Below, one piece after another: positions 17,624-18,906 of a DNA stretch of 37,718 nucleotides (within the stretch, counting starts at the first letter, position 1; every line of letters begins with the position of its first letter). The stretch lies in assembly GCA_947463125.1 (NCBI GenBank), contig CANHQZ010000017.1, positions 1 to 37,718 of the forward strand, written 5' to 3'. Under the pieces are notes generated by a model. The model saw only the letters and a program-made list of their open reading frames with translations, did not search any database and was not told the origin of the DNA. This DNA is from Flavobacteriales bacterium. GTDB taxonomy: Bacteria; Bacteroidota; Bacteroidia; NS11-12g; UBA955. The translations under genes and the position numbers were made by a program.

Positions 17624-18484
17624 ATGCATAGTGCTGCAGCCGACTTTCTGGACTACCTGGCATTGAACCGGCGTATGTCTGTTCATACCGTTGCGGCCTA
17701 TGAAAATGATTTGCAGCAATTTGAAGCTTATTGCCAAAACGATGCACTCGATATCATCTCCGGGCTTAATTCGATAACTGTGCGTGGCTGGATGGCAGAT
17801 TTAATGGAAGCAGGATTGCAGGCGCGCTCTGTACACCGTAAAATATCAGTGCTGCGCTCCTTTAGCCGGTACCTGAGAAAGCAGGGCAAACTCAAAACAG
17901 ATCCATTGTCTAAAATCAGCCTGCCCAAAATGCCGAAGCGCATCGTGCAGGATATTCCCGCCCGGGATTTACAAAACATGTTTGCCCATTTCCCGTGGGA
18001 AGAGCATGAGAACGGACAACGTGATAAATTGTTGCTTCTGTTGTTTTACTCCACCGGCATGCGCCTGAGCGAACTGGCTGCCATACACTGCGGGGACGTT
18101 GATTTGAACCGAAAAACCGTGCAGGTTACCGGAAAACGCAATAAACAGCGGCTTATTCCGCTCCACGACGAAATACTGCAAGGGCTGGACTTATGGATGA
18201 AAGGGAAAAACGGATTGCTTTTCCCGCTGGAAAACGGCAAACCCATGTACCGCATGTATATCTATCGTCTGGTAAACCATTATCTTCGGCTTTTCAGCGA
18301 TGCCTTGAAGACCAGTCCGCACGTATTGCGCCACTCATTTGCCACCCACATGCTGAACAATGGAGCCCAGCTCATGGCAATCAAGGAAATATTGGGTCAT
18401 GCCAGCCTTGCTGCAACGCAGGTTTATACCAAAAACAGTTTCGAAAAACTGAAGAAAATTCACGCACTGCATCCAAGAAACTAA
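17624..18484 (+). CDS. xerC: Tyrosine recombinase XerC/XerD
   Basis: A 286-residue site-specific recombinase. The N-terminal SAM-like core-binding domain (about 1-95) is followed by the catalytic domain with a complete active set: R147 (STGMRLSEL), K171 (VTGKRNKQR), H233 and R236 (SPHVLRHSFATH), H259 (LGHAS) and the nucleophile Y268 (QVYTK). Length and motifs fit chromosomal Xer proteins that resolve chromosome dimers at dif, not an integrase of a mobile element. XerC and XerD are hard to tell apart here; xerC is a guess from the position next to rpsU and hpf. ATG 17624 is used because the 30 residues upstream do not fit the family. The 116-base gap to the divergent gene holds a near-consensus -7 box (TTGCTTTG, 17611-17618). 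Confidence 0.92.
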   Translation: MHSAAADFLDYLALNRRMSVHTVAAYENDLQQFEAYCQNDALDIISGLNSITVRGWMADLMEAGLQARSVHRKISVLRSFSRYLRKQGKLKTDPLSKISLPKMPKRIVQDIPARDLQNMFAHFPWEEHENGQRDKLLLLLFYSTGMRLSELAAIHCGDVDLNRKTVQVTGKRNKQRLIPLHDEILQGLDLWMKGKNGLLFPLENGKPMYRMYIYRLVNHYLRLFSDALKTSPHVLRHSFATHMLNNGAQLMAIKEILGHASLAATQVYTKNSFEKLKKIHALHPRN

Positions 18485-18518
18485 CATCAGTCGGATTTAT
18501 CGGCCTGTTTGTCTACTG

Positions 18519-18534
18519 TGTGACACAAATCACA
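18519..18534. promoter_or_regulatory. CRP/FNR-type operator TGTGA-N6-TCACA upstream of hpf
   Basis: Perfect match to the classical cAMP-receptor-protein half-sites TGTGA and TCACA separated by six bases (CACAAA), followed by a T-run as in strong CRP sites. It is centred at 18526.5, about 41.5 bases before the start predicted from the -7-like box at 18556-18563, the geometry of class II activation. Confidence 0.6.
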
Positions 18535-18555
18535 TTTTTTTTCGTTGTATGAATA

Positions 18556-18563
18556 TAATTTAG
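18556..18563 (+). promoter_or_regulatory. Candidate -7 box of hpf (TAATTTAG, one mismatch)
   Basis: One base differs from TAnnTTTG. No TTG stands at the -33 position; the CRP-like palindrome covers that region, as expected for an activator-dependent promoter. The predicted leader is about 39 bases. Confidence 0.4.
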
Positions 18564-18606
18564 TTGAAATGCCTTTATCGGCAAAAACCACAAAATTTCT
18601 AATCCT

Positions 18607-18906
18607 ATGAATATTCATTTTCAAACCATCGGAATGAAGGCTGAACCCCGGATTATGGATGTAATTTCCGGCAAACTGGAGAGACTAAACCGCATGTATC
18701 AGCGCATGCAGGAAGTAAAGGTTATTTTAAAAGAGGAGAAATCTGACACCAAACGTAACAAGACCCTGGAAATCAGGATTAAAGTTCCGGAAAAGGAACT
18801 TTTTGTGATGCAACAGGATCACTCTTTCGAAAACGCTATGGACAAAGCGGTAGATGCCTTAAAACAGCAGATTGCAAGGATTAAAGGAAAGCTACAGGAC
18901 CATTAA
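18607..18906 (+). CDS. hpf: Short ribosome hibernation promoting factor
   Basis: A 99-residue HPF/RaiA (ribosomal subunit interface) family protein starting MNIHFQTIGMKAEPRI, with a basic, helix-rich end (VDALKQQIARIKGKL). It binds the decoding centre of idle ribosomes and stabilises inactive 70S or 100S particles. The short form lacks the C-terminal dimerisation domain of long HPF. It follows xerC after 122 bases that hold a candidate CRP-type operator and promoter. Its stop codon overlaps the stop of the convergent RidA gene inside a TTAA. Confidence 0.93.
   Translation: MNIHFQTIGMKAEPRIMDVISGKLERLNRMYQRMQEVKVILKEEKSDTKRNKTLEIRIKVPEKELFVMQQDHSFENAMDKAVDALKQQIARIKGKLQDH

Follow-up and report, generated by a model that had tools for sequence, protein, structure and literature searches.

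A candidate class II CRP-type operator before hpf in a Flavobacteriales genome, probably built for a Crp/Fnr-family protein that has since decayed

The promoter of the ribosome hibernation gene hpf in this freshwater Flavobacteriales bacterium carries a conserved candidate CRP-type operator whose predicted position is that of a class II activator site. On balance, we regard this operator as probably built for a Crp/Fnr-family protein, here termed Crp2, and as recently orphaned or taken over in the genome under study. The window, that is, the whole 37,718-nucleotide stretch of DNA that was analyzed, belongs to an assembly of 2.34 Mb in 85 contigs (98.9% complete; G000), which was searched by pattern. 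The coordinates of the features discussed are collected in Table 1.

Table 1 Features of the hpf promoter region and related loci in G000
Feature	Position	Strand	Basis or remark
xerC-type tyrosine recombinase gene, upstream of operator	17624..18484	+	PF00589/PF02899
ATCAGTCGGATTT	18486..18498	+	invariant in five operator-bearing genomes; distance to operator fixed
Candidate CRP-type operator TGTGA-CACAAA-TCACA (TGTGACACAAATCACA)	18519..18534	+	sequence; predicted centre -41.5
Spacer, 21 nt, without -33 TTG	18535..18555	+	equal in length to lipocalin promoter spacer and class-wide peak
-7 box TAATTTAG	18556..18563	+	one base off TAnnTTTG
Predicted hpf transcript start	18568	+	inferred: box end + 5 nt
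hpf, short-type ribosome hibernation promoting factor, 99 aa	18607..18906	+	TIGR00741, 45.8 bits over cut-off; PF02482
Second exact operator	L004 1022-1064		21 nt before TAACTTAG of the lipocalin gene
crp2 remnant, 58 codons	L149 1501-1677		next to uvrB, then unrelated sequence

A sequence-only reading of this DNA had described a perfect TGTGA-N6-TCACA palindrome between xerC and hpf, followed by a -7 box one base away from TAnnTTTG; both are present as described, the palindrome without a single mismatch. The -7 box has been mapped at positions -12 to -5 in Flavobacterium psychrophilum (PMC9723704), and this box position places the predicted +1 at 18568 and the center of the palindrome at -41.5. 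No TTG occurs 17–23 nt upstream of the hpf -7 box. The earlier proposal of a -41.5 center and a missing -33 TTG agrees with this absence, with the mapped box position and with the 21-nt gap. The gene assignments of that reading are likewise upheld by the domain matches in Table 1; for the xerC-type recombinase, the best NCBIfam model is TIGR02224, at a score below its cut-off. Two other features of the xerC–hpf gap were considered and rejected. The sequence TGACANAAATCA, invariant at hpf, matches the genome at 86 places when one mismatch is allowed, compared with 32 for a control, and was discarded as the true motif. A reading frame that spans the gap (SVGFIRLF...) and seems conserved varies equally at first and third codon positions and least at the second, is interrupted by a stop in G003, and possesses an in-frame start codon only in G004. 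The distance from ATCAGTCGGATTT to the operator is unchanged even in G004, despite sequence inserted upstream of ATCAGTCGGATTT.

Perfect palindromes of this kind are about as frequent in the genome as base composition predicts. The window contains 13 sites with two or fewer mismatches against 16.9 expected, which is no excess over chance, with the hpf palindrome as the sole perfect match. Across G000 there are four perfect palindromes (at hpf, at a lipocalin gene, and two that are apparently coding), where base counting predicts approximately two and the reversed control yields one; with two expected, the palindrome by itself is weak evidence. The composite pattern of palindrome, N21 and TANNTT occurs without mismatch at two places against ~0.02 expected by base counting, and these two matches precede hpf and the lipocalin gene (PF08212). 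At the latter locus, a divergent gene has TACCTTTG at a distance of 17 nt from the lipocalin operator.

Conservation of the palindrome in close relatives, which the sequence-only reading had set as a test, was found in congeners. The hpf operator has no mismatch in G000 and G002, one in G003 and G004, and four in G005, where it is degenerate; the lipocalin operator is perfect in G000, G004 and G005 and has one mismatch in G002 and G003. Nine of these ten promoters thus lie within one mismatch of the pattern, and the operator-to-box distance is identical at all ten. The hpf -7 box of the congeners that share the operator reads TAAATTGT, TAAATTGA or TAACTTGA. Because synonymous sites of xerC are near saturation (pS 0.57–0.76, Jukes-Cantor dS above 1 for every genome pair), conservation of the operators at this divergence reflects selective constraint; the hpf rows of G001, G002, G004 and G005, truncated or read on the wrong strand, were left out of the synonymous-site comparison. 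Within the lipocalin operator, 0.84 and 1.00 of pairs agree at the two conserved half-sites, against 0.48 at the unconserved N6. At hpf the order is reversed, with 0.93 for the N6 and 0.78 for the half-sites; this is due to the degenerate site in G005 and counts as a weakness. Both operators are absent from G001 and G006, the two more distant congeners. Judged by eye, hpf possesses a TTG at -33 with a 19-nt spacer to TAAATTGC in G001 and in G013 and G017, the latter two from other genera, and a TTG with an 18-nt spacer to the box in G006. The comparison indicates that the -33 TTG element at hpf is one that the operator-bearing clade has lost.

The same spacing recurs far beyond the genus. We searched 395 Bacteroidia genomes for TGTGA-N6-TCACA followed by TAnnTTTG at 6–36 nt. 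The gap was exactly 21 nt in 31 of the 76 palindrome/box pairs (27 genomes) and 20–22 nt in 42, while the remaining gaps average ~1.2 pairs per spacing; with sites treated as independent, the 21-nt peak has P ~1e-32 against the off-peak background. This concentration suggests that a class II geometry, with a predicted center at -41.5, holds true across the class. Gap-21 palindromes read TGTGAY-N4-RTCACA, and their spacers lack a -33 signal. Judged by simple sequence signatures, approximately 24 of the 42 first genes behind sites at 20–22 nt are sulfur or thiol genes, among them MBL-fold persulfide-dioxygenase-like proteins, TauE exporters, YgaP-like membrane proteins, thioredoxin, thioredoxin reductase, ArsR regulators and a rhodanese. 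At four of the loci examined (L202, L229, L243, L201), crp genes encoding a REVISR helix and sensor-domain cysteines stand beside the sites. From sequence, a layout in which a Crp-type protein activates from -41.5 thus appears general in Bacteroidia and linked to sulfur and thiol genes. No hpf gene is among the 42 targets at spacings 20–22. Membership in a Crp2-type sulfur/thiol regulon is not supported: hpf and the lipocalin gene share site and spacing with it, but neither is a sulfur gene, and G000 yielded no intact Crp2. The class II geometry proposed for hpf from the box position finds strong support in its conservation in congeners, in the recurrence of the 21-nt gap at the lipocalin gene and in the class-wide 21-nt peak.

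Which protein the hpf operator serves was approached by aligning the Crp/Fnr proteins to E. coli CRP, whose reference residues are Arg82-Ser83 and Arg180-Glu181...Arg185. Crp2 carries Arg-Glu...Arg at the three helix positions, and a C-A-L-x3-C motif inside its sensor domain. Its gene is intact only in G003; near uvrB it has decayed in G002 and G004, and in G000 a 58-codon remnant is left, beyond which the contig extends for another 400 bp. Homologues beside sulfur genes were found in G005 (46%) and G001 (38%), and none in G006. The Crp2 lineage, intact or as a remnant in G000, G002, G003 and G004 and as the 46% homologue in G005, is thus found in the operator-bearing genomes. The G005 Crp homologue (L112) has the helix SSRVVISR, in which Val occupies the place of Glu181; the hpf operator of that genome is degenerate. 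In the Crp2 remnants, dN is 0.09–0.18 with dS saturated, which suggests that decay is recent; recent losses can in turn account for the persistence of intact operators. Two lines of evidence run counter to Crp2: i) G003, where Crp2 is intact, has a mismatch in each operator, and perfect operators occur where Crp2 has decayed, and ii) G001 possesses the 38% homologue and lacks the operators. It also speaks against Crp2 that, within the genus, no operator of its type was found next to crp genes.

In G000, the search for Crp/Fnr proteins yielded a single intact one, a receiver-cNMP-HTH fusion (C2:62034-63089; hereafter receiver-Crp), whose gene directly follows one for a histidine kinase. In the alignment it has Thr at the position of Arg180 and keeps Glu and Arg at 181 and 185. 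Neither receiver-Crp nor Crp2 has a counterpart of the cAMP-binding Arg82, and neither shows an N-terminal FNR-type Fe-S cysteine cluster. The protein sequences do not support cAMP sensing or Fe-S oxygen sensing. The suggestion that hpf answers to a Crp/Fnr regulator of starvation or oxygen is not supported, given the Thr at Arg180 and the lack of an Arg82 counterpart in the sole intact family member found. Nor was an intact homologue with a TGTGA-type recognition helix found in the genome, Crp2 being reduced to its remnant, an outcome that the sequence-only reading had named as refuting it; as regards a cAMP-CRP regulon, no intact Crp with the Arg180-Glu181...Arg185 helix was found in G000.

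A model for the hpf promoter can be proposed on these grounds. The promoter would be activator-dependent and of class II: a dimer of a Crp/Fnr-family protein would bind TGTGA-N6-TCACA centered at -41.5, adjoin RNA polymerase, substitute for the missing -33 element and enhance transcription of hpf from its -7 box. Crp2 is the protein for which this operator most likely arose in the operator-bearing clade; in other Bacteroidia, relatives of Crp2 adjoin sulfur-oxidation genes whose promoters are laid out in the same way. Crp2 would then have been lost recently in G000, leaving the operator either a fresh orphan or in use by the remaining receiver-Crp.

Several other readings were weighed. Receiver-Crp, once phosphorylated by the kinase of the adjacent upstream gene, might now regulate hpf through this operator in response to a two-component signal; its standing as the only intact family member found in G000, the neighboring kinase gene and the retained Glu and Arg at 181 and 185 all speak for this, but the Thr in place of Arg180 does not, and the protein is missing in G002 and G004, where both operators are retained, but present in G001 and G006, where both are lacking. 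We consider such a takeover rather unlikely, and as the ancestral binder receiver-Crp was rejected, its distribution being opposite to that of the operators. Quite unlikely, too, is that the palindromes are maintained by another DNA-binding protein, either not of the Crp/Fnr family or not captured in the assemblies. That G002 and G004, 98–99% complete, keep operators with no intact Crp/Fnr gene would be accounted for in this way, but both the site and its predicted placement at -41.5 are as expected for the Crp/Fnr class, the class-wide sites favor TGTGAY-N4-RTCACA, and the losses of Crp2 look recent enough for the operators to have been retained.

The palindrome could also be the stem of a weak intrinsic xerC terminator, a UGUGA/UCACA hairpin followed by U8. 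A T8 tract does follow the right arm in G000 and G003, and a small hairpin is present in the predicted fold; yet the fold has a z-score of only -0.47, the terminator scan makes no call, and the T-tract or the stem is broken in G002, G004 and G005. A terminator would also leave the lipocalin promoter and the fixed 21-nt distance unexplained, and we judge it very unlikely. Least credible of all is a chance palindrome within an AT-rich gap: perfect palindromes alone are as common as expected, but chance is contradicted by conservation at near-saturated synonymous divergence and by the two-promoter and class-wide spacing results. The class II operator built for Crp2 is the reading that we retain. 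More tentatively, it is conceivable that a widespread cysteine-pair Crp/Fnr lineage of Bacteroidia activates sulfur and thiol genes from TGTGA-N6-TCACA sites exactly 21 nt before the -7 box and that a single freshwater clade recruited hpf to it, the operator replacing the -33 element, and then lost the regulator several times.

A CRP-type site placed exactly 21 nt before the -7 box, with no -33 element, would amount to a sequence rule for activator-dependent promoters in Bacteroidia; we did not find this rule in the literature searched, where no paper was found joining Bacteroidetes, CRP and hibernation promoting factor, or joining the -7 box with CRP. Such a rule makes regulons predictable from genomes. 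The hpf promoter also offers a natural example of a hibernation gene that seems first to have acquired an activator site and later to have been left without the regulator, and the fate of the orphaned operator is directly testable.

In E. coli class II CRP promoters, TGTGA-N6-TCACA is centered at -41.5 and overlaps the place of the upstream promoter element. The hpf promoter is alike in operator sequence and in its predicted -41.5 center; it differs in having a Bacteroidota -7 box, and in that the family members here lack the cAMP-binding arginine. The Crp2 relatives of Bacteroidia, Crp/Fnr-like proteins encoded beside TauE, MBL-fold and rhodanese genes, are alike in the REVISR helix, the C-A-[LM]-x3-C motif and the class II sites at 21 nt before such genes; hpf and the lipocalin gene are not among the class-wide targets seen for their putative regulon. 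In box type and position the hpf promoter resembles Bacteroidota sigma-A promoters (TTTG near -33, TAnnTTTG at -7) and the SM5 class of F. psychrophilum, TAnnTTGY, which is assigned to an alternative sigma factor (PMC9723704); unlike in sigma-A promoters, the -33 element is absent in the operator clade, while G001, G006, G013 and G017 have the TTG. The hpf -7 box reads TAAATTGY, of the SM5 class, in relatives (L009, L010, L011, L014, L016, L023). Control of ribosome hibernation offers the closing parallel: cAMP-CRP of E. coli controls rmf and raiA (PMC8778775), and the two systems have in common a CRP-type input, putative in the present case, to a ribosome-hibernation gene, the targets being rmf and raiA and the signal cAMP in E. 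coli, and the target here being hpf.
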